DNA of 64,000 bases from a virus: positions 186,001 through 250,000 of the IMG/VR virus record IMGVR_UViG_3300048121_001678, one strand, 5' to 3'. Positions 13,387 to 42,146 of this stretch are shown one piece after another. Position 1 is the first letter of the stretch. Every line of letters begins with the position of its first letter. Made by a program: the position numbers and the translations under genes. The notes below the pieces were generated by a model. It was not told where the DNA came from. It searched no databases and worked only from the letters and a program-made list of their open reading frames with translations.

Positions 13387-14184
13387 ATGAAAGATATATC
13401 AGTAGTTCTCCCTATTGAGAGCTCAAAACACAAAAATTTTGTAGAGTTGTTTACAAACGCAATTAAATCAATTCAAAATCAATCAGTACCACCAAAAGAG
13501 CTAGTGTTAGTTCATTCTAATGAAGAGTCTTTAGTCGAGTTTTTAACTAACTTCGAATTTAGTGGTTTAACTGTTAATATGGTTGAAAATAAAGGTAACA
13601 CTGATTTTGCATCGCAAATGAATTTAGGTGTAGAAAAATCAGAGTCTGAATGGGTTTCATTTTTAGAATTTGACGATGAGTATGCAACTATATGGTTTAA
13701 AAATGTTCAAACATTTATAGAAGCACATCCAAATGTCGGAGGATTCTTATCGTTAGTTGTTGATGTTGACCACAAAGGTCAATTTGCTGGTTTCACAAAT
13801 GAGGCTACTTTCGCAGCGTCAATGAACACAGAAATTGGTTATTTAACCAATGAAGTCTTACTCGATTATCAAAACTTCCAATCTGCAGGTATGGTAATTA
13901 ATAAAAAAACATATCAGGATATGGGTGGTTTTAAACCGTCTTTTAAACTCACATTCGTATATGAATTCTTATTAAGATTAACATATAACTCGGTTAAAAT
14001 TATGACAATACCTAAAATTGGGTATAAGCACCTTAACATGAGAGAAGGTTCTATATTTTGGAACTATAAAAATGGAGATAATAAAGTTACTGAAGACGAG
14101 ATTAGATTTTGGTTAGACTCGGCAAAAAAAGAGCATTTCTTTACTGAAGATAGAAACATAAAATATGAATCTGAAACTGTTTAA
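13387..14184 (+). CDS. GT2-family glycosyltransferase
   Basis: A 265-residue GT-A protein. DISVVLPIESSKHKNF opens like GT2 enzymes, NKGNTDFASQMNLGVEKS matches the helix that holds the nucleotide, and WVSFLEFDDEY holds the DDx metal motif. QNFQSAGMVINKKTYQDMGGF fits the acceptor-side conserved region. The stop shares one base with the next ATG (TAATG), coupling it to the sigma-like gene. Confidence 0.8.
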   Translation: MKDISVVLPIESSKHKNFVELFTNAIKSIQNQSVPPKELVLVHSNEESLVEFLTNFEFSGLTVNMVENKGNTDFASQMNLGVEKSESEWVSFLEFDDEYATIWFKNVQTFIEAHPNVGGFLSLVVDVDHKGQFAGFTNEATFAASMNTEIGYLTNEVLLDYQNFQSAGMVINKKTYQDMGGFKPSFKLTFVYEFLLRLTYNSVKIMTIPKIGYKHLNMREGSIFWNYKNGDNKVTEDEIRFWLDSAKKEHFFTEDRNIKYESETV

Positions 14185-14939
14185 TGTTTTTATCAGGAGA
14201 CACAAACGGTCCGTTACCTACACCAACTAAAAAAAGAGGTAGGAAACCAAAACCGGGTAGTAATTATTTTGATGTGAGAGAAGAGAATGCCGTTAGGATG
14301 TTTCTCACCGCCTCCACAACAACAGAAAAGAATGAGATTTATAATGAATTTTTAAAAGCACCATTAGATAAAATGATTGAGTCTATTATCAGAAGATATA
14401 AACTTTATCGTAAAGGAATGGATTTTAGAGATATACATGTAGATACACATTCTTTTCTAATTACTAAAGTAGATAAATTTAAACCAGCAAAAGGTAAGAA
14501 AGCATATTCTTATTTTGGTACTATTTGTAAAAACTATTTGATGGGTCAAATCATCAAAGACCAAAAAGACCAAAATAGAAAGATATCTTACGAAGACATA
14601 TCATCATCATTAGAAAGTAGACCTGACTTAATATATCATTTAGAACATGATGTTGTTGAACCAAGTCAGGTTATTAAACATTTTTTAAAGGAAATGGAAG
14701 AGTTTATGGATAAAACTAATTTAAATAAAAATGAAGTTAAATTGGGTTATGCGTTAATGGAGTTGTTTGAAAATTATGAAACTATTTTTATTGGTACTGA
14801 TAATAATAAATTTAATAAAAATATCATATTACTCTCATTAAGAGAAATGACGAATTTATCCACTAAAGAAATCAGAACCTCAATGAAGAAATATAAAACA
14901 CTGTATTATAATTTGGTTAAAAAAATCAATAATATATAA
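14184..14939 (+). CDS. Late-transcription sigma factor, T4 gp55-like
   Basis: A 251-residue protein. Residues about 50-130 resemble sigma region 2: a helix PLDKMIESIIRRYKLYRK, then DTHSFLITKVDKFKPAKG and KAYSYFGTICKNYLMGQI, the core-binding and -10 recognition helices. The N-terminus carries KKRGRKPKPG, a basic AT-hook-like stretch. No typical region 4 is seen, as in T4 gp55, which recognises only a TATAAATA -10 element. A matching motif occurs in front of many late genes in this window, which supports the call. It lies directly upstream of baseplate genes. Confidence 0.65.
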   Translation: MFLSGDTNGPLPTPTKKRGRKPKPGSNYFDVREENAVRMFLTASTTTEKNEIYNEFLKAPLDKMIESIIRRYKLYRKGMDFRDIHVDTHSFLITKVDKFKPAKGKKAYSYFGTICKNYLMGQIIKDQKDQNRKISYEDISSSLESRPDLIYHLEHDVVEPSQVIKHFLKEMEEFMDKTNLNKNEVKLGYALMELFENYETIFIGTDNNKFNKNIILLSLREMTNLSTKEIRTSMKKYKTLYYNLVKKINNI

Positions 14940-14966: not shown

Positions 14967-15344
14967 ATGGGAAGACCAAAGAAAAAAGAGATTGTACTAA
15001 ATAAAGACTCGGTTTTAAGTCTTATGCAAGAAATCTACAATGAACTTGTGGAACAAAGAAGTACTGCGGTTAGAATACAAAACAAAATGCTTGGAATGTT
15101 AAAAGAACCAAAAGACATGACAGTAATTGGTCCCGTTATAAAAGAACAACAAAAGATTATTAATGACACCATAGAGAAAAAACTATCGTTGTCAAAATTA
15201 CAGTCATCTATTTGGGAAAAATCTCAAAACACATCAGAGGAGTCATTTAATATATCCGATATGGATGACGATGTTCTCTCAGCACTTATTGAAAAGGATT
15301 CTGACACCAGTAAGGGTAATACTGAAGGGTATAAACTAGATTAA
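14967..15344 (+). CDS. Unknown protein, probably tail or baseplate related
   Basis: A 125-residue mostly helical protein. It starts MGRPKKKEIVL, a basic cluster, and continues with a long helix (SLMQEIYNELVEQRSTAVRIQNK). The C-terminal third is acidic. No family recognised. It is the first gene after the sigma-like factor and precedes a large structural gene, so a role in tail assembly is likely by position only. Confidence 0.6.
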   Translation: MGRPKKKEIVLNKDSVLSLMQEIYNELVEQRSTAVRIQNKMLGMLKEPKDMTVIGPVIKEQQKIINDTIEKKLSLSKLQSSIWEKSQNTSEESFNISDMDDDVLSALIEKDSDTSKGNTEGYKLD

Positions 15345-23930: not shown

Positions 23931-25661
23931 TTATCTTAAAGAGTTCATATCGAACGTTCTAACACCATCAACTGTAATAACACCATAGAAACGGTTATTA
24001 ACCATTTTCTTAGCGTATCTAGTCATGATACCCTTGATTGGTGTAAAGTTGAATGGGTTATACATAGTTGGTGTCAACTGTAATGGTACATATGGTGCGT
24101 AAACGTACCCTGTATCCAATAAAGAAGAACCTTTATGTCCCATCAATACAGTGTTAGGTGGGAAGTAAGGGTCACGGTAAACTTGATATCTACCTGATAA
24201 CGTACCTACTCTCTCAATACCCATGTTGTATTGGTCTTGGTCTGGTGCCGCATTTGATACGTGGAAGTATTCCAAGTCATCAAAGATTGCTGAAATTTCA
24301 GAAGAAACTACAATCCAGTTAGCACCACCTCTAAGAGTTGATTTGTGAATTTGAGCCGAGATTTGGTTAATTGCAGTAATCAACGTTTGGTTCCAGTCTT
24401 TTTGGTTATAGTTAACTGAACCATTAGATACTCTCTTCCATCCGTTGTAATCCCAACGTAATGACCAAGCTGCACCTTTTCTCAAGTCTCTTAAGATTTC
24501 ACGGTCAATCTCCGCTGCCACTTGCTCAGATAATAAAGCTGTTAATTCAGCTTCAGCATCGATGTTGTGGAACGCAGAAACGTCTTGTGCTAGTTCTGGA
24601 GACCATTGTGCTCTTAATTTTCTTTCTGTTACAGAAACAGTAACTGCTTCAAGGTCGAAAGAAACTTCACCAATTGCATCTTCAAATTCTAACGTTTTGT
24701 AGATTCTGTATGATGCGTCGAATTCAGGTGACGCTGCGTAAGTTGTACCTGAATAACCATCTAAAGAAGATGTACCAATACCAGCTACTACTGATGTATC
24801 TACAGATAAGTAGATAATACCTTCAGCATCACAGATATTGTCATATTTTCCACCAGGGAAGTTAGTTGATGCTTCAGCACCGTACTGAACAATACCTTTA
24901 CCATACTTCTGTGTTACCACATTGAAGTTGAAGTAATTAGCACCTGAATAAACTTCTAATGAAGCCAAGAATTCTTCAGTGTCCATTGCATTACCATCAG
25001 GACCGATTAGTTTACCTGCTCCGTCTCCTGAGAAACCTGACAACGCAACAATTACTGCTCTTGTTTCACCTGTGTAATCAGTTGATGTAGCCTCTACTAA
25101 AGTACTACCATCCCACTTATAGTTTACTAATGCTTTAGTAATTCCACTATACTGTCCTTTTGAATAATCAAATAGTCCAGCTGGGTCAGAATTTGGTGTT
25201 TCTCCTTCATAGAATTGGTCGTACAAGTTCTTTTGACCTGCAGTGTAACCTGTGTCTGTTGAAGAAGGACCTCCTGGTGCTCCGTAAGGTTTATAGTGTT
25301 CGCCATTGATTTGGTTAGCGTTCGCTTCTTGAATTTTAGGTACGAAGTAGAACAATTTACCGATTGGTAAGTTCATTGCTTGTACTGATACAATATCGTT
25401 AGCTAGTAATTTCGAGAATACTCTTCTAACGATAGGAAAGACTACAGTTTCAAATGAACCTGAGTCAGAAGCGTTTGCTGCTTCGTTAATTAAGTGAGAC
25501 GCTTGGTTTTCGTATAATTGTGCTACGTTTTCTCTCAAGTGACCTTTCAAGCCATCTAAGAAACCTAACTTGTCCCATTTGTTGATTGTGTCTTCTTTGA
25601 TAACTTTTAGGTGTTTTAACCCAATGTTACCTACAAGACCTGATTCTAATAATGCTCCCAT
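23931..25661 (-). CDS. 23: Major capsid protein, T4 gp23-like
   Basis: A 576-residue protein. Residues 28-110 match gp23 closely by eye: WDKLGFLDGLKGHLRENVAQ, ASHLINEAANASDSGSFETV, VFPIVRRVFSKLLANDIVSV and PIGKLFYFVPKIQ. Residues 58-61, I-N-E-A, fit the prohead protease rule, so maturation would remove the first 60 residues, close to the 65 removed in T4. It is the last gene of the head operon in transcription order and is followed by a strong terminator. No late promoter motif lies in the 30 bases upstream, so it may rely on transcripts from the scaffold gene. Confidence 0.95.
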   Translation of the reverse strand: MGALLESGLVGNIGLKHLKVIKEDTINKWDKLGFLDGLKGHLRENVAQLYENQASHLINEAANASDSGSFETVVFPIVRRVFSKLLANDIVSVQAMNLPIGKLFYFVPKIQEANANQINGEHYKPYGAPGGPSSTDTGYTAGQKNLYDQFYEGETPNSDPAGLFDYSKGQYSGITKALVNYKWDGSTLVEATSTDYTGETRAVIVALSGFSGDGAGKLIGPDGNAMDTEEFLASLEVYSGANYFNFNVVTQKYGKGIVQYGAEASTNFPGGKYDNICDAEGIIYLSVDTSVVAGIGTSSLDGYSGTTYAASPEFDASYRIYKTLEFEDAIGEVSFDLEAVTVSVTERKLRAQWSPELAQDVSAFHNIDAEAELTALLSEQVAAEIDREILRDLRKGAAWSLRWDYNGWKRVSNGSVNYNQKDWNQTLITAINQISAQIHKSTLRGGANWIVVSSEISAIFDDLEYFHVSNAAPDQDQYNMGIERVGTLSGRYQVYRDPYFPPNTVLMGHKGSSLLDTGYVYAPYVPLQLTPTMYNPFNFTPIKGIMTRYAKKMVNNRFYGVITVDGVRTFDMNSLR

Positions 25662-27432: not shown

Positions 27433-28152
27433 TTAATTATCTAAATAATGAGATAATCTTTTCATTAAGTCAATAGATGCACCCATTCCCCCGTCTAATC
27501 TCGCTTCAGGTTCAGGTCTTTTTTCTTCTTCTAAGTTTTCTTCGTACTTACCTTTATCGTCTTTATTAAGGAATAAGTAAGCACCAGGTGTAGATGGTGA
27601 CGACACCAAATCAAAACATATAAGTTCAAAGTCCTCTTGAACTTCATTTCTTTCACCTTTCTTAGCTAATGAACCGACACCACGTGAAGATACCCCCATA
27701 GTGACACCCTGTCTCATTAAGTTAGCTGCTTGGTCACCAGGACACGACACAACACCTGTTTGATGAAACCCTGGGGATGTGAGTAATTTAATCTTACCCA
27801 TTAATGTATTACCTTCCCACCACATTTCTGTAATTAGGTGTGATACACGGTCCAAATCTATTAATGAAGACTCGGGGTGATTAAGTTCAGATATTGATAA
27901 CCCTTTTTTAATTGCTTCATTATATCTTTCAGCTTCTCTACGTAAAATCTTTTCTGGATAAACACGACCGTTTCTATTTGGTGTGTCGAATTTTTGTAAT
28001 ACCGCATAAAACTCAAATGGTTTAGAGTGGTCTAACTGACCATACGATTCTTTGATTACATCGGCATTACGACTATCATTGGGATTCACATACCCTGCGT
28101 CCCATTCAATCAATATTCCTTTACCTATATCTTGTGGTCCTAAAACTCTCAT
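27433..28152 (-). CDS. 21: Prohead core protease, T4 gp21-like
   Basis: A 239-residue serine protease of the gp21 type. The catalytic His lies in SISELNHPESS and the Ser in MGVSSRGVGSL; FDLVSSPSTPGAYLF matches the conserved region after it. FDTPNRNGRVYPEKIL is a family signature near the N-terminus. It digests scaffold and trims capsid and internal proteins after (I/L)xE sites. The C-terminal tail (EEEKRPEPEARLDGG) is disordered and may be removed. Upstream lies a late promoter motif. Confidence 0.92.
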   Translation of the reverse strand: MRVLGPQDIGKGILIEWDAGYVNPNDSRNADVIKESYGQLDHSKPFEFYAVLQKFDTPNRNGRVYPEKILRREAERYNEAIKKGLSISELNHPESSLIDLDRVSHLITEMWWEGNTLMGKIKLLTSPGFHQTGVVSCPGDQAANLMRQGVTMGVSSRGVGSLAKKGERNEVQEDFELICFDLVSSPSTPGAYLFLNKDDKGKYEENLEEEKRPEPEARLDGGMGASIDLMKRLSHYLDN

Positions 28153-28601: not shown

Positions 28602-29051
28602 TTATGATAAATATTCCTTATTTTTCGTTTTGGTCTTAGATAGTGTAAAATAGTTTGAATTATGTAACTCATCTTTATATATTGACGTAGTTATTTTTTT
28701 AACTCTATCTCGTAAAATAGGTGATTTAAAATCAACATGCTCCTTTAAAAATAAAGTAATTTCTAAGTTCATAAAAGATTTTTTACCAATCTGAATCCCA
28801 CTACTTCGTAAATCTAAATCAACAATGTTGTGTGATTCAAATATTAATGGGTCGACGGTCTCTAATAAGTTATGTTTAATATTTCTATTTAAGTTACCAT
28901 TTATCCTATTCCAATTATCTGATTCTATTTTTGGTTGAATCCACGACTGTATAGTTATGTAGATTGATTTAAGATTATGTGCATCTACAGTACCATAATT
29001 ACATTTAGCATTTTCAAAGATATCTAACTTTGAACTTTTTCCTTTTTTCAT
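28602..29051 (-). CDS. Unknown head-operon protein
   Basis: A 149-residue protein. It starts with a basic stretch (MKKGKSSKLDIFENAK) and has a conserved-looking core (HNIVDLDLRSSGIQIGKKSF; LEITLFLKEHVDFKSPIL). Nothing enzymatic is visible. Related genes in T4-like phages of this kind sit between portal and protease genes, so a role in head assembly or head completion is inferred from position. Confidence 0.55.
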   Translation of the reverse strand: MKKGKSSKLDIFENAKCNYGTVDAHNLKSIYITIQSWIQPKIESDNWNRINGNLNRNIKHNLLETVDPLIFESHNIVDLDLRSSGIQIGKKSFMNLEITLFLKEHVDFKSPILRDRVKKITTSIYKDELHNSNYFTLSKTKTKNKEYLS

Positions 29052-29134
29052 ATATTTCCATATGTCTTATTTGTTTATTGTTAGTAAAATAATAATAAAG
29101 TTTACTCCATTAGTCAAAATTGACATTAAAAAAC

Positions 29135-29142
29135 TATTTATC
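29135..29142 (+). promoter_or_regulatory. Late-type promoter motif before rpsU (TATTTATC)
   Basis: ACTATTTATCTATAA on the plus strand, 14 bases before the ATG at 29157. The position matches the late consensus and suggests late expression of bS21. Confidence 0.5.
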
Positions 29143-29156
29143 TATAATAGGAACAT

Positions 29157-29348
29157 ATGTTAGTAGTAAAAGTAAATAAAAAAGGTGGTATAGAACGTGC
29201 ACTTAAAGAGTACAAAAGAAAGTTCATTAAGACTAAACAACTTAATAAACTTAGAGATGATAGGTATTATGAAAAACCAAGCTCTAAAAAAAGAAAGAAA
29301 TTTCAAAAGGCCAAGTATGTACAAAAAATAAAGGATTCAGAAATCTGA
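29157..29348 (+). CDS. rpsU: Ribosomal protein bS21 (phage-encoded)
   Basis: A 63-residue protein matching bS21 along its length: start MLVVKVNKKGGIERALKEYK, then RKFIKTKQLNKLRD and a basic tail (KPSSKKRKKFQKAKY). bS21 binds the 30S subunit beside the anti-Shine-Dalgarno region. Phage copies have been reported in large phages and are thought to replace the host protein and change initiation preference; in Bacteroidetes, bS21 helps hide the anti-SD. An AGGA (29149-29152) lies 4 bases before the ATG, unusual among genes here. It lies on the plus strand, against the head operon, with its own late-type motif and terminator. Confidence 0.93.
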   Translation: MLVVKVNKKGGIERALKEYKRKFIKTKQLNKLRDDRYYEKPSSKKRKKFQKAKYVQKIKDSEI

Positions 29349-29355
29349 ACCCTTT
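29330..29355. terminator. Bidirectional terminator at the end of rpsU
   Basis: Stem AAAGGATTCAG / CTGAACCCTTT with one mismatch and loop AAAT. It overlaps the rpsU stop codon and lies before the end of the convergent gene at 29362. Confidence 0.7.
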
Positions 29356-29361
29356 ATTAAT

Positions 29362-30102
29362 CTATAACCCTTCGTGTAATTGTTTGAGTTTGTATAGTGA
29401 AACTAAATCGTTTTCACTTTCATTAATCTTAGAAATAGTATTATTAACTTTTTCACTTAATTCGTTATCACTATTTTCGTTTAATGTTGATTGAAGCTTA
29501 CCGATAACCGATTCTTTTAATTCAGTCATTTCTTTAGTAATTTCTTCTTTAGTCATTGAAAGTAATCCTTTTAATTCTTCCTTTTCAGTTTCATTAATAT
29601 TATCGTATTCTTTATTGAAGGTATTCGACGCAATTTTCAACATTGTGGATAATGGTAAGTTTACCGATTCTTTGATTACATCTTCAATCTTTGTTTCTGT
29701 AAGTGTGGTTTGAATCTTTAATTTTGATTCGACAACCTGCTCTAACTTAGTTAAAGATTTTTCGTATATAATATTATCGATATCTTTATAACTGTTTTCA
29801 ACAGACTCATCTAATATAGAATTAACCCATTTAGATAACTCTTCGATTTTTTCTTTATTATTTGTAATAATGTCATTTAATTTTTCAAAAGACTCATTTA
29901 AGTATATTATTGCAACTTCTTTAGATAACCCCTTTTGTGTGTTTAATTCATCATAAAGGTAATACGCTTCTGCTAAGTTTTTATCCCCTAATATTTTAGA
30001 TTTAAACCCTGACATATTAGTTTTAAAAGATGACTTTCCGTATGTTGAAATTAATACTCTTTCAATCTTAGATTTTATTTGACCAAATTTATTCATAATC
30101 AT
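29362..30102 (-). CDS. Prohead core protein, gp68-like by position
   Basis: A 246-residue, almost fully helical protein with many Glu and Lys residues (EKLNDIITNNKEKIEELSKW; KEEITKEMTELKESVIGKL). T4 has small core genes 67 and 68 between portal and protease; this gene holds that place. It has several I/L-x-E sites, fitting degradation during maturation. ATG at 30102 or 30096 are both possible; the second is 13 bases from the late motif, the usual spacing. Confidence 0.65.
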   Translation of the reverse strand: MIMNKFGQIKSKIERVLISTYGKSSFKTNMSGFKSKILGDKNLAEAYYLYDELNTQKGLSKEVAIIYLNESFEKLNDIITNNKEKIEELSKWVNSILDESVENSYKDIDNIIYEKSLTKLEQVVESKLKIQTTLTETKIEDVIKESVNLPLSTMLKIASNTFNKEYDNINETEKEELKGLLSMTKEEITKEMTELKESVIGKLQSTLNENSDNELSEKVNNTISKINESENDLVSLYKLKQLHEGL

Positions 30103-30121: not shown

Positions 30122-31996
30122 TTATTTAAGTAAGTTGTTTAATTTTTCTTCCATCTCACCTAATGAATCTCTACCTTTTGATAGGTCAATAGTCTCATCT
30201 TGACCGAACAATGTCGAATCTTCTAAGATTAAATCTAAGTCTTTATTTTTAACAAATGTCTCAGGTGCTAATTCGGGTTCACTACCAGTACCTACTTCAC
30301 CAGCGGGTTCACCACCTAAATCGCCACCTAAATCGCCACCTAAATCGCCACCGAAGTCACTACCCCCACCGAAGTCACCTCCACCACCAAAGTCGTCTCC
30401 TCCTTCAGTATCAGATTCACCTTCAGGTTTAGCATCTTTCTGTCCATATAGTTTGTCAAGGTTATCAAAGATACCTGTATTGACAATAACTTCTTGAGTT
30501 TTTTCTAACTCACCTGCGACCGCCCTTTCGATACGTTGTTGTTGTAGGTCAAGTTTGATTTCCTCATCAGAGAACCCAAGAATATGTTTCTTAGCCCATG
30601 ATGATGAAACAGGAAGGATACCATTACCTGGGTCAGTAGTTGCATCTCTATATAACTGAATCTTCTGTTGCCATTGTTCCACCTTCAACAAGTCCGCTTG
30701 TGACGATGGATTAGTTAAACCTAATGTGAAGTTTTGTAATTCATCTTCAAATCCTAAAATATATAAATGAATTATTGCTATCTTATTTAACTCTTGTACC
30801 ATAGACCTTTGTACTCTATTAATAGTTCGAGCGAAACGAATATCTTGTAGAGCCAAGTTCTTACCTTCACCTGTGACCTCCTCAAAACCTAAGAATGCCT
30901 TTGGTACTCTTAATGCTGTGAGTAATTTCTTTTGAATATACTCTATATCCGCAATTTCTGATAGGTTTGTAGCACCTGGTAAGGTATCTATCGGATTTGG
31001 AGAGTTAGGGTCTCTAACAGGTATAAAATAGTCTTGGTCTACGGCCATTTGGTTCATACGTAGGTCGACATTACCTGTTTGAGGGTCAGCAACTTGGTCA
31101 CGTTTGAACTTATTGGCAACTCTTTGTACATACGGTTCGACATCTTTGTCATCCATATTACCAACAAATACTTTAAACACCCTTCTTTCAGGTGCCCTAG
31201 ATGTTCTATATATTAACATAGCATCTTCAGAGAGAATAAGTTGTTTCCATATTCTTCTGGCTTTTTCCAACATAGAAGTCCCATAAGGAAGTTTACGGTC
31301 ATCACCCAATAATCTAAAGTGGGCAATTTCCCACGTATTGAATTCCATATCCTTAGCCTTCCATTTGAATTTTAACGCATCTTCGTCAGCATCTCCTGTT
31401 GGTTGTTGAATACCATATTGACCAGGTGAGGATTTCATTCCTCTTTCCAATCTTTCGATTTCAATGTTAGGTAATTGTTGTCCACCCACAATACCTTTTT
31501 CAGGGTCCAATTTCAAGTATACAAAGTTATCACCGTACTTAGCGGTGTTTCTTGTCCACATCGGTAAGTTAGTGTCTATATCTAATCTATTATTAAATAA
31601 ATCTGTTAGTACCGATTTAATTCTTTTACTCTCGGAAAAAACTTGTAATATGTAACCGTCTTCGTTAGCTGTTGTTGATTCCTCAGCGTATATATCAAGA
31701 GCCGCAGAAATTTCAGGTGTGAACTCCATACTCTCATAATCGTAAAACGCTGCCAGTCTTGTTGGTTCATAATATACCGCCTGAGTATATAAGTTATTTT
31801 CAACTTTTTGCCATTGTTGACCTAAGTATAGTGTTTGTTGTGCTTCAAGTTTTTCTCTATCATACTCCTCCTTATCACGTGTTTTTAATAATTCTTTCTT
31901 ATCAAAATTGTAAACAGGTGGCTGTTGGTCCAATGTTGAATCGGGACCAAATACTTTGGTTAATCTCTGCCAAACAGTAAAGTTATTTTCTGCCAT
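30122..31996 (-). CDS. 20: Portal protein, T4 gp20-like
   Basis: A 624-residue protein. Typical gp20 segments are MEFTPEISAALDIYAEEST, FLGFEEVTGEGKNLALQDIR and FARTINRVQRSMVQELNKIA. It forms the dodecameric ring through which DNA enters the head and to which the terminase docks. The C-terminal 110 residues contain a Gly/Asp-rich repeat (FGGGSDFGGDLGGDLGGD, in DNA about 30300-30410), absent from T4 and probably disordered. It starts 49 bases after the terminase stop and has its own late motif. Confidence 0.93.
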   Translation of the reverse strand: MAENNFTVWQRLTKVFGPDSTLDQQPPVYNFDKKELLKTRDKEEYDREKLEAQQTLYLGQQWQKVENNLYTQAVYYEPTRLAAFYDYESMEFTPEISAALDIYAEESTTANEDGYILQVFSESKRIKSVLTDLFNNRLDIDTNLPMWTRNTAKYGDNFVYLKLDPEKGIVGGQQLPNIEIERLERGMKSSPGQYGIQQPTGDADEDALKFKWKAKDMEFNTWEIAHFRLLGDDRKLPYGTSMLEKARRIWKQLILSEDAMLIYRTSRAPERRVFKVFVGNMDDKDVEPYVQRVANKFKRDQVADPQTGNVDLRMNQMAVDQDYFIPVRDPNSPNPIDTLPGATNLSEIADIEYIQKKLLTALRVPKAFLGFEEVTGEGKNLALQDIRFARTINRVQRSMVQELNKIAIIHLYILGFEDELQNFTLGLTNPSSQADLLKVEQWQQKIQLYRDATTDPGNGILPVSSSWAKKHILGFSDEEIKLDLQQQRIERAVAGELEKTQEVIVNTGIFDNLDKLYGQKDAKPEGESDTEGGDDFGGGGDFGGGSDFGGDLGGDLGGDLGGEPAGEVGTGSEPELAPETFVKNKDLDLILEDSTLFGQDETIDLSKGRDSLGEMEEKLNNLLK

Positions 31997-32045: not shown

Positions 32046-33821
32046 TTATCTTCTACTTCCGAATAACCATAAATAGTTTTCATAATCACTTTTCGTTGCG
32101 TTACCTGTACGACCATTTCTATAGGGGTCATTTGGTAATGCCGACAGAGAAGGATTATAATTATCTACAGGGTTAGTTACCGGTGTTTCTTGCACATACC
32201 AACTATCAACCATTGCTTTAGTTTGTTCAGTCACTTTCTCTAAAGAAGTAAATGAATTTTCACCTACATATATCGCCATGGCCATTGCCATAATCAAATC
32301 ATCATGTTGTCCTTTTATGTGGTCAGGTCTACCGTTAACATAAACAAACGTATTTAATTCATTTAAAAGTCTTGTTGAACGAACCTTATAATCATGTCTT
32401 AAAGATTCCTCAAAGGAGGCAACAATTTGTACACGTTTACTATTGAAATTTAAACCAGGTATCTTTTCCATAGCCTTAGGGTTGTATTTCCATTTGTCCG
32501 CAGCATTCACACCTTCTACATATAAGTTTTGATACCCCATCTCTTGGAGTTTTCGGGACGTTGATACTCCCATACCTCCCGTAATATCAATAACCACAAA
32601 CGCATTATACATAGTTGCCCATTTAAATGCGATTTCAGCTGCAACATCAGGTGGTATTTTCCCTAAATACTCTAAAACTTGCTCCCTTTCATCAAAATCA
32701 ATAATACAAAACGTTGTGAAATCCTCACTGTCACCACGAGAAACGTCTATACCCATTATGTACTTATGATTAGCAATAGGTTCTTTCCATTGCCATAGTG
32801 AACCACCCATAAACTTATTCTCTGGCGGCATAATATGGTTTTCTTTTAACTTTTCAATAGTTTCATTAGGAATTACATTGTCACCTGAACCTAAAAAGTT
32901 ACACTCAAGCTCCTGAGAAATTTTTCTACGGTCAAACTTAAGTTTTTTAGCCATAGACTCAAACCAGCTGGAGTATGGTTTATATCCCTTATCAAAATGA
33001 TTTTTAATTTCTTCAAAATCTCTTTGTCTAGGGTCTATATGTGTATAATCAATAATAATTTCACTATCGTTATAGTCATCACGATTTAACATATAGTGTA
33101 TAATGTCCTTACACTTTATTAATTGTAAGTTTTTGGCGTATCTAGGGTCTTTATACCAATACATGTCGGTAATCTTAAAGTCATTCATCCCCCTTAATGC
33201 TTGGTCATAAATCGCATAATATATACGGTCAAAACCGTTAGGTGTTGATATTACGATTACTTTACCACCAGTAGATAGTGAAGCCATACATGCAGACCAA
33301 AAGTCATCATCGGCCTCAATAAACGCAGCTTCATCAAAAATAAGAATAGTAGGGGTATACCCACGCAGAGCATCTTTAGAAGTTGCAACCGCTTTAACCT
33401 CACATCCATTATTTAACTTAAAGTGTCTTTGTGAATTTTTTTCATTTGAAAATTTAACCCCTAACCAATCAGGCCATTGGTCAACAAAAGAACGTATCTT
33501 ATTTGCAAATTCCATAGACGTATCTAATTTATTTGCAATGATTAGTATCTTTTCTGGTTTACTCTTTTTAGCAGTAACTAATTTTTTAGACGACCAAGCT
33601 GCGGTAACTGTTGATACACCTGCTTGACGATATTTGATTGCGATATTTTCTTCAAAATTATCATAATCAAAAATTAACTTGTCTTGGTCAGGAAAAAGTT
33701 CGAGTGGTACGTAACGAGATTGTGTGTTGTCGTATGTTTGTAAGTATGTCTTTAATGCATATGACGTATCCTTAACTATTTTCGCGTATTCTACTAATGC
33801 TTTTTCTCTCGTTAAACCCAT
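32046..33821 (-). CDS. 17: Terminase large subunit, T4 gp17-like
   Basis: A 591-residue DNA-packaging motor. The ATPase domain has a Walker A-like loop AIKYRQAGVSTVTAA and Walker B TILIFDEAAFIE, with the coupling motif VIVISTPNG. The nuclease domain has acidic ligands in YIMGIDVSRGDSEDF, FVVIDITGGMGVSTS and GQHDDLIMAMAMA. It cuts concatemeric DNA and pumps it through the portal. No separate late motif was seen upstream; it is probably cotranscribed with the gene starting at 35124. Confidence 0.95.
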   Translation of the reverse strand: MGLTREKALVEYAKIVKDTSYALKTYLQTYDNTQSRYVPLELFPDQDKLIFDYDNFEENIAIKYRQAGVSTVTAAWSSKKLVTAKKSKPEKILIIANKLDTSMEFANKIRSFVDQWPDWLGVKFSNEKNSQRHFKLNNGCEVKAVATSKDALRGYTPTILIFDEAAFIEADDDFWSACMASLSTGGKVIVISTPNGFDRIYYAIYDQALRGMNDFKITDMYWYKDPRYAKNLQLIKCKDIIHYMLNRDDYNDSEIIIDYTHIDPRQRDFEEIKNHFDKGYKPYSSWFESMAKKLKFDRRKISQELECNFLGSGDNVIPNETIEKLKENHIMPPENKFMGGSLWQWKEPIANHKYIMGIDVSRGDSEDFTTFCIIDFDEREQVLEYLGKIPPDVAAEIAFKWATMYNAFVVIDITGGMGVSTSRKLQEMGYQNLYVEGVNAADKWKYNPKAMEKIPGLNFNSKRVQIVASFEESLRHDYKVRSTRLLNELNTFVYVNGRPDHIKGQHDDLIMAMAMAIYVGENSFTSLEKVTEQTKAMVDSWYVQETPVTNPVDNYNPSLSALPNDPYRNGRTGNATKSDYENYLWLFGSRR

Positions 33822-40130: not shown

Positions 40131-42146
40131 ATGATAGAATCAGTTGACCCGAACGATAGTTCAAAAGGAAAGAAAGATAGATTACCTAAGTCTGGTACAC
40201 CAGTATTAGACAACTTTTCACGTGATTTAATTAAACATGCAGAACAAGGTAAGTTAGACCCTGTTGTTGGTCGTGACCGTGAAATTGAGCGTATTGCACA
40301 AATCCTCTCTCGTAGAAAGAAAAATAACCCTATTATCATTGGTGAACCAGGTTGTGGTAAGACAGCAATCATTGAGGGATTGGCCATGAAAATATATGAA
40401 GGTGATTGTCCTCGTAATTTATCAGATAAACGTATCGTGTCCTTAGATATGACATCAATCGTTGCAGGTACAAAGTATCGTGGACAATTTGAGGAACGTC
40501 TAAAGGTAATCTTAGATGAGTTATACGATAATCCAGATATCATTGTATTCATTGATGAAATACATACTATCATCGGAGCCGGTAACTCATCAGGTTCCTT
40601 AGATGCCTCAAATATCTTTAAACCGGCACTTGCACGTGGTGAACTACAATGTGTTGGTGCAACTACACTCGATGAGTATCGTGAAAATATTGAAAAAGAT
40701 GGAGCGTTAGAACGTCGTTTTCAGAAGGTTATGGTTGATGGGGCATCACCTGAAGAAACAATGATTATCTTACAGAATCTTAAATCACGTTACGAATCAC
40801 ATCATAAGGTATCTTACTCAGATGACTCTTTAGAAGCGTGTGTGTACTTAGCTGACCGTTACATTACTGACAGAGCATTTCCAGATAAAGCAATCGATAT
40901 TTTAGATGAGGTTGGTGCTCGTAGTCAAATCTCCGTGAAATTACCTGAAGAAATTGAAAAACTTAAAGACGAGGCAAATGTCATTAAATTGGAGAAAATC
41001 GATGTAGTTAAAGCACAGGACTATGAGAAAGCAGCACACCTTAGAGATAAGGAAAAGAAAATCCTTAAAGAATTGGATAAAGTTAAAATTGAGTTTGAAA
41101 ATAAGCAAGATGAGGAACGTAAACCAATTACTGAAGATATGGTATATGAAGTTGTCGCAAATATGACTAAAATACCTGTATCTAAACTTAATCAAAACGA
41201 AATGGAAGGATTGTTAGATTTAGAAAACAACCTTAATCAAACGGTAATTGGTCAAGAACCTGCAGTTAAGAAGATTTCTAAAGCAATACGTAGAAACCGT
41301 GTCGGTATTAAAGACCCAAGTCGCCCAATCGGTTCATTCATCTTCTTAGGTTCCACAGGTGTAGGTAAAACACACTTAGCTAAAAAATTGGCAAAAGAAA
41401 TTTTTGGAGATGAAGAGGCACTGATTAGAGTAGATATGTCTGAATACCAAGAAAAGTATACGATGTCACGTCTTATTGGTTCCCCTCCAGGTTATGTAGG
41501 TCATCAAGAAGGTGGACAACTAACTGAGAAAGTTAAAAATAAACCATATTCAGTAGTACTGTTTGATGAGATTGAAAAGGCAAATAAAGACATCTTCTCA
41601 CTTCTATTACAAGTTTTAGATGACGGTCACCTAACCGATAGTTTCGGTCGTAAAATCAACTTCAAAAACTGTTTAATTATTATGACATCAAACTTAGGTG
41701 TTAAGAAACTACAGGATTTCGGTGCAGGTGTTGGGTTTGACACAACTGCAAGAATTAGTGGTGACGAGGACCTTAAAAAGGCTCTTTTACAAAAAGAACT
41801 TAAGAATCACTTCACACCTGAATTCTTAAATCGATTAGATGAAGTAATTGTGTTCAACCCACTAAAAGAAAACGAAGTACGTCAGATTGTAGATATTGAG
41901 TTATCAAAACTAAATCAACGTTTAGAGAGGCTTGGGTATCACATTAACTTTACTGATGAAATTAAAACCATGTTAGGTGAAGTAGGTTATGATGAGAAAT
42001 ATGGGGCAAGACCAATCAAAAGAGCTATCCAAGAAAAGATTGAGGATTACATCTCTGAGGAAGTACTACGTCAAAATATCAAAATCGGACGTAACTACGA
42101 ACTTAAGTTTGTAGATGAAGAAGTGAAAATTGAGGAGGGGGGTTAA
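40131..42146 (+). CDS. clpC: ClpC-like AAA+ protein unfoldase lacking the Clp N domain
   Basis: A 671-residue protein with two AAA+ modules. D1: Walker A IIIGEPGCGKTAI, Walker B VFIDEIHTIIGAG, arginine-finger segment GALERRFQ. Middle domain: AQDYEKAAHLRDKEKKIL, a UVR-type motif as in ClpC. D2: FLGSTGVGKTHLAKKLA, pore-loop region GSPPGYVGHQEGG, VVLFDEIEKA, ending FLNRLDEVIVF. Cellular ClpC has about 820-850 residues; here the N-terminal double-repeat domain is missing, about 15 residues preceding D1 LDNFSRDL. No ClpP loop (I/L-G-F/L) was securely identified, so coupling to a protease is open. Confidence 0.92.
   Translation: MIESVDPNDSSKGKKDRLPKSGTPVLDNFSRDLIKHAEQGKLDPVVGRDREIERIAQILSRRKKNNPIIIGEPGCGKTAIIEGLAMKIYEGDCPRNLSDKRIVSLDMTSIVAGTKYRGQFEERLKVILDELYDNPDIIVFIDEIHTIIGAGNSSGSLDASNIFKPALARGELQCVGATTLDEYRENIEKDGALERRFQKVMVDGASPEETMIILQNLKSRYESHHKVSYSDDSLEACVYLADRYITDRAFPDKAIDILDEVGARSQISVKLPEEIEKLKDEANVIKLEKIDVVKAQDYEKAAHLRDKEKKILKELDKVKIEFENKQDEERKPITEDMVYEVVANMTKIPVSKLNQNEMEGLLDLENNLNQTVIGQEPAVKKISKAIRRNRVGIKDPSRPIGSFIFLGSTGVGKTHLAKKLAKEIFGDEEALIRVDMSEYQEKYTMSRLIGSPPGYVGHQEGGQLTEKVKNKPYSVVLFDEIEKANKDIFSLLLQVLDDGHLTDSFGRKINFKNCLIIMTSNLGVKKLQDFGAGVGFDTTARISGDEDLKKALLQKELKNHFTPEFLNRLDEVIVFNPLKENEVRQIVDIELSKLNQRLERLGYHINFTDEIKTMLGEVGYDEKYGARPIKRAIQEKIEDYISEEVLRQNIKIGRNYELKFVDEEVKIEEGG

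Follow-up and report, generated by a model that had tools for sequence, protein, structure and literature searches.

Among viral ribosomal proteins, bS21 is the most common. The closest described systems are the bS21-encoding jumbo phages of freshwater Bacteroidetes, in which bS21, flanked by two conserved hypothetical genes, is encoded on the strand opposite that of the protease, portal, TerL, and capsid genes (Chen et al. 2022, PMC9723584). Metatranscriptomes showed bS21 of these phages to be co-expressed with capsid genes; Chen et al. proposed late expression and substitution of the phage protein into ribosomes, pointed out the aromatic residue 54, and noted that phage bS21 diverges from bacterial bS21 in its N-terminal half (PMC9723584). 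Since arrangement, late transcription, and ribosome substitution were all put forward there, the core idea is not new. The words "promoter" and "motif" are absent from that paper, and the Shine-Dalgarno sequence (SD) of the phage gene is not discussed in it.

On the host side, rpsU genes have SDs that pair at -14 to -21 kcal/mol over 9-13 bp, and autoregulation in Flavobacterium johnsoniae requires such extended pairing, below -13 kcal/mol; a Y54A substitution in F. johnsoniae bS21 releases SD-dependent initiation (McNutt et al. 2023, PMC9976891). McNutt et al. also offered the speculation that a protease encoded by phages of this kind could act on host bS21 (PMC9976891).

A Bacteroidota-type bS21 in the arrangement of known jumbo phages

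The window analyzed here is a 64,000-nt stretch, positions 186001-250000 of a 297,164-bp virus record, and the open reading frame (ORF) at 29157-29348 (plus strand) is the sole bS21 gene in that record. It encodes a genuine Bacteroidota-type ribosomal protein bS21. The first-pass annotation had called it a phage bS21 gene, and both identity and coordinates were borne out: the 63-residue translation (MLVVKVNKKGGIERALKEYKRKFIKTKQLNKLRDDRYYEKPSSKKRKKFQKAKYVQKIKDSEI) matches PF01165 (Ribosomal_S21) with 39.7 bits (cut-off, 27; E = 4e-10; profile positions 2-54 of 55), where we counted as family members proteins that score above the Pfam gathering cut-off and cover the whole domain. The ORF also matches PHROG 21469.

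When we searched the PDB with a profile of phage relatives, the bS21 chains of 9I5V and 7JIL scored far above all others; 7JIL is the F. johnsoniae ribosome (PMC9723584). The comparison with host bS21 that the first-pass annotation had proposed showed that the phage protein is 48% identical to the bS21 of 7JIL over 61 residues and retains the ASD-stacking Tyr54, the aromatic residue by which we recognize a Bacteroidota-type bS21 that hides the anti-SD (ASD). Tyr54 is invariant in 15 of 15 aligned phage bS21 proteins, in which other residues are conserved too. The protein has also stayed F. johnsoniae-like at R21 and F23, which belong to four positions for which Chen et al. described divergence.

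The locus shows the arrangement described by Chen et al., with bS21 on the opposite strand between protease and portal/TerL genes and flanked by two conserved hypothetical genes. On the minus strand lie the genes for a Gp23-type major capsid protein (23931-25661; PF07068, E = 6e-73), the prohead protease (27433-28152; PF03420, E = 1.9e-24), a T4-like portal protein (30122-31996; PF07230, E = 7e-77), and the terminase (32046-33821). The immediate neighbors, both conserved, without a family match, and also on the minus strand, are divergent (28602-29051) and convergent (29362-30102) with respect to bS21; the product of the latter probably belongs to the family that Chen et al. named bS21_CN. Between the two convergent genes is a 14-bp hairpin (29327-29358), terminator-like on the minus strand, with fold z-scores of -5.1 and -5.4; a terminator scan found it as well. 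The order of bS21 and its flanking neighbors is the same in 18 of 25 representative loci. Genomes of 293-331 kb, 31-34% GC, Tyr54, and Clp protease genes are further features in common with the jumbo phages of Chen et al., of which the present record is one more member.

A phage-specific promoter class shared with virion genes

The motif TATTTATC (29135-29142, plus strand), 22 nt before the bS21 ATG, is the -10-like element of a phage-specific promoter class. For all per-gene counts, we used 320 genes called on the record by our own script. Across the whole record, TATTTAT occurs 77 times in noncoding upstream DNA (12.5 expected), and 71 genes have it within 35 nt of the start (10 in shuffles). 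Relative to the ATG, sites cluster at 10-15 nt (23 sites) and at 20-29 nt (45 sites), leaving the 16-19 nt interval empty; the reverse complement of the motif shows a flat distribution. In the 20-29 nt group, an A follows 12 nt past the first T of the motif in 91% of sites, compared with 73% for the best start-codon-aligned position. This geometry suggests a -10 element with its transcription start site. By the same 91% rule, the predicted bS21 mRNA would start at 29147 and have a leader of about 10 nt (29147-29156, plus strand); leaders predicted for the 20-29 nt class as a whole are about 8-17 nt, and the empty 16-19 nt gap separates this class from the closer one. At the 23 sites where TATTTAT is 10-15 nt before the ATG (for example, at window positions 14967, 38223, 39245, and 58405), the predicted start coincides with the start codon or lies no more than a few nucleotides from it, so these phage mRNAs may be leaderless. 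The bS21 genes of the related phage loci L020, L022, L033, and L037 also have TATTTAT at this shorter distance.

The first-pass annotation had described the bS21 motif as late-type. What stands is that it belongs to a real, enriched class common to virion and lysis genes: TATTTAT precedes the protease (at -24) and portal (at -20) genes, the gene leading the capsid unit, and the endolysin and tail fiber genes, and the convergent neighbor of bS21 has its own copy (at -15). It also precedes the primase and UvsX genes, so the class is phage-specific but not strictly late; and because the annotated motif genes were partly picked by the motif, we limit the claim to a class that is phage-specific and serves virion genes. 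Of 33 distinct phage bS21 leaders, 22 have exact TATTTAT no more than 60 nt from the start. The clade of L005 and L010 has a TATCTTTG-type box before bS21 in place of exact TATTTAT, so the timing of bS21 expression may differ among clades.

Phage T4 late promoters consist of TATAAATA, without a -35 element, and are read with the σ factor gp55. The class described here resembles them in being a lone -10-like octamer near the start codon of virion genes and in the presence of a weak gp55-like candidate gene. It differs in its motif (TATTTATA), in its use at the primase and UvsX genes, in that a search for a gp45-type clamp found no PF02916 match, and in the weakness of the σ assignment. The gp55-like candidate (14184-14939, plus strand) matches PHROG 234 (late σ; E = 0.008) and Sigma70_r2 (E = 0.001) weakly, and the closest folds to its structural model are σ factors, at low confidence (pLDDT 66); its product could perhaps read the TATTTAT class.

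Host-type promoters

Aligned related leaders share a conserved GTCAAAA upstream of bS21, which we considered as a bS21-specific element and rejected. On the other strand it reads TTTGAC, followed after 20 nt by TA..TTT, and it makes better sense as the -33 box in a candidate leftward promoter of host type (TTTG, 20 nt, TA..TTT; 29087-29118, minus strand) that reads towards 28602-29051. The 20-nt spacing was checked in the bS21 intergenic regions inspected; in L004, the nearest relative, the site was read by eye, the automatic hit being a different TTTG. The same architecture, TTTG-N19/20-TATATTTG, recurs across the record. The region upstream of bS21 therefore seems to hold two promoters, a leftward one of host type and a rightward one of phage type. 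A perfect E. coli-type TTGACA-17-TATAAT at 29120-29148 (plus strand) overlaps the TATTTAT motif and has no second perfect copy in the record; as a bS21 promoter it would belong to a class that is not enriched (1/177), and L004 has TTGACA/TATAAT with a 16-nt spacer.

The host-type promoter, or at least its -7 box, is also found at the genes for an RpoD-like σ factor, a methyltransferase, a ClpA-like ATPase, and a ClpP-like protease. The RpoD-like σ factor (G000:67714-68538, minus strand) has regions 1.2, 2, and 4 and a host-type -7 box upstream. The ClpA-like ATPase (window 40131-42146, plus strand) and ClpP-like protease (G000:275727-276386, plus strand) genes both have host-type TATATTTG boxes. 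A complete tmRNA gene (window 48463-48852, plus strand; RF00023, 82.5 bits; tag GETFAKLQAVGLLRTEEVAVA) likewise has a host-type promoter, TTTG-N19-TATATTTG, upstream.

The bS21 leader lacks a host-like SD

An AGGA at 29149-29152 (plus strand) ends 4 nt before the bS21 ATG, and the first-pass annotation took it for an element of self-control like that of host rpsU genes in Bacteroidetes. The AGGA is present and rare, as had been claimed, but it is not above chance: 5 of 320 genes have one within -16 to -3, where a composition shuffle predicts 8.5, and we judge it a chance match. Pairing of the bS21 leader with the ASD amounts to -4.2 kcal/mol (a perfect ASD complement gives -19.2 kcal/mol), which ranks 37th of 320 and is equalled by 12% of genes and 9% of composition shuffles; when the bS21 leader is taken alone, 1.35% of its own composition shuffles pair as strongly, which speaks for a working SD. 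Against it, the pairing covers only 4 bp and sits 4 nt from the ATG, inside the predicted 10-nt leader, and AGGA is missing from each of the other 32 distinct phage bS21 leaders, including that of L004, whose protein is 87% identical. We found no SD in the 33 distinct phage leaders: the best value was -4.2 kcal/mol with the canonical ASD and -3.8 kcal/mol with a Chryseobacterium-type alternative ASD, and with the canonical ASD the other 32 reached -3.8 kcal/mol at best. As a bacterial control, the rpsU locus L218 (IMG/VR), which adjoins genes read as xerC and hpf, formed 10 uninterrupted pairs with the alternative ASD (-11.8 kcal/mol); it is the only bacterial rpsU leader that we examined directly, and a genome scan of GTDB for host rpsU returned one Calditrichia locus. 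Flavobacteriales rpsU and the phage gene encode homologous proteins with Tyr54, but the extended SD of the former, at -14 to -21 kcal/mol and beyond the -13 kcal/mol that autoregulation in F. johnsoniae demands, has no counterpart in the phage gene, so the defining cis-element of autoregulation is missing (McNutt et al. 2023, PMC9976891). It is thus highly improbable that the AGGA works as an SD and subjects the phage gene to autoregulation of the host rpsU kind.

The first-pass annotation had also suggested a survey of SD strength across the phage genome. Carried out on the 320 genes, it gave a chance-level result, with a mean pairing of -1.34 kcal/mol compared with -1.09 kcal/mol in shuffles, and of -0.49 kcal/mol for genes of the TATTTAT class. 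We discarded active avoidance of SDs, which appeared in comparison with a mock region (p = 3e-9) and vanished (p = 0.46) among genes having at least 50 nt of noncoding DNA upstream; the latter value argues that the genome is SD-less at chance level rather than SD-avoiding. Outside the group, the 735-kb phage L241 (LR756501) has a bS21 gene with a strong SD (AAAGGAGGATAA, -12.1 kcal/mol); a second gene in the L241 stretch has an SD too (-9.8 kcal/mol), so that of its bS21 may reflect ordinary SD use. Judging from promoter type, SD-less starts, the affinities of bS21, and the phages of Chen et al., this giant phage probably infects Bacteroidota.

A proposed exchange of host bS21 for the phage form

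The identity of bS21, its retained Tyr54, the virion-type promoter motif, and a leader free of an SD both here and in all relatives examined are the observations on which we base the following proposal, to which we give about even chances: phage bS21 replaces host bS21 while escaping the SD-dependent feedback, and is made when the phage promoter class is active. The phage protein would be expressed, from an mRNA with a putatively short leader, when the TATTTAT class common to virion genes is active; it would enter ribosomes by taking the place of host bS21 on the 30S platform and, since Tyr54 is kept, should hide the ASD in the manner of the host protein. Retention of Tyr54 together with absence of the SD suggests a protein that maintains ASD hiding but stands outside the host feedback, because the SD-free phage gene would evade the control that limits host rpsU. 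The strong rpsU SD works best on ribosomes without bS21, and the host feedback raises host bS21 only when ribosomes lack it; ribosomes filled with phage bS21 would thus hold translation of host rpsU low, and the phage form would supplant host bS21 with no need for an extra repressor.

The first-pass annotation had supposed that a phage copy, sitting beside the hidden ASD, could change initiation choice in favor of late phage mRNAs. This idea is weakened by the retention of Tyr54 and by the chance-level SDs of phage genes: exposing the ASD would not favor mRNAs that have no SD to profit from it, which disfavors re-aiming of ribosomes by this route, and some other cause would be needed for any bias towards phage mRNAs. 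The published hypothesis that a changed N-terminal half of bS21 makes specialized ribosomes that prefer phage mRNAs draws on N-terminal divergence and late co-expression (Chen et al., PMC9723584), and the very short leaders that late-class phage mRNAs may have would be a feature to select on; nevertheless, R21 and F23 have not diverged, and phage leaders share neither an SD nor any other evident recognition element. We consider this explanation somewhat unlikely, and we know of no measurement of the selectivity of ribosomes with phage bS21. Alternatively, the phage might only top up a loosely bound ribosomal protein to keep ribosomes complete once host rpsU mRNA is gone, leaving mRNA choice unchanged. 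The host-like Tyr54 and overall sequence agree with simple supply, and complete ribosomes would translate an SD-free gene, but the consistent divergence of phage from bacterial bS21 (Chen et al., PMC9723584) would go unexplained, and we regard this explanation as unlikely.

Several observations speak against the proposed exchange, namely, the strong SD in L241, a phage outside the group, the lack of exact TATTTAT in L005 and L010, and the presence of TATTTAT at the primase and UvsX genes. We suggest only tentatively, as a rather doubtful extension, that Bacteroidota jumbo phages exploit the host bS21 loop in this way, and that the chief beneficiaries would be phage mRNAs with very short leaders or none.

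The locus bears on whether phage ribosomal proteins merely serve to supply ribosomes or re-aim them. Exchange of host bS21, which we infer from the features of the locus and do not offer as a result, adds to the published substitution hypothesis a reason for the exchange and a direct test. The missing autoregulatory SD of phage copies makes that general hypothesis cleanly testable in F. johnsoniae, for which the autoregulation assay exists.
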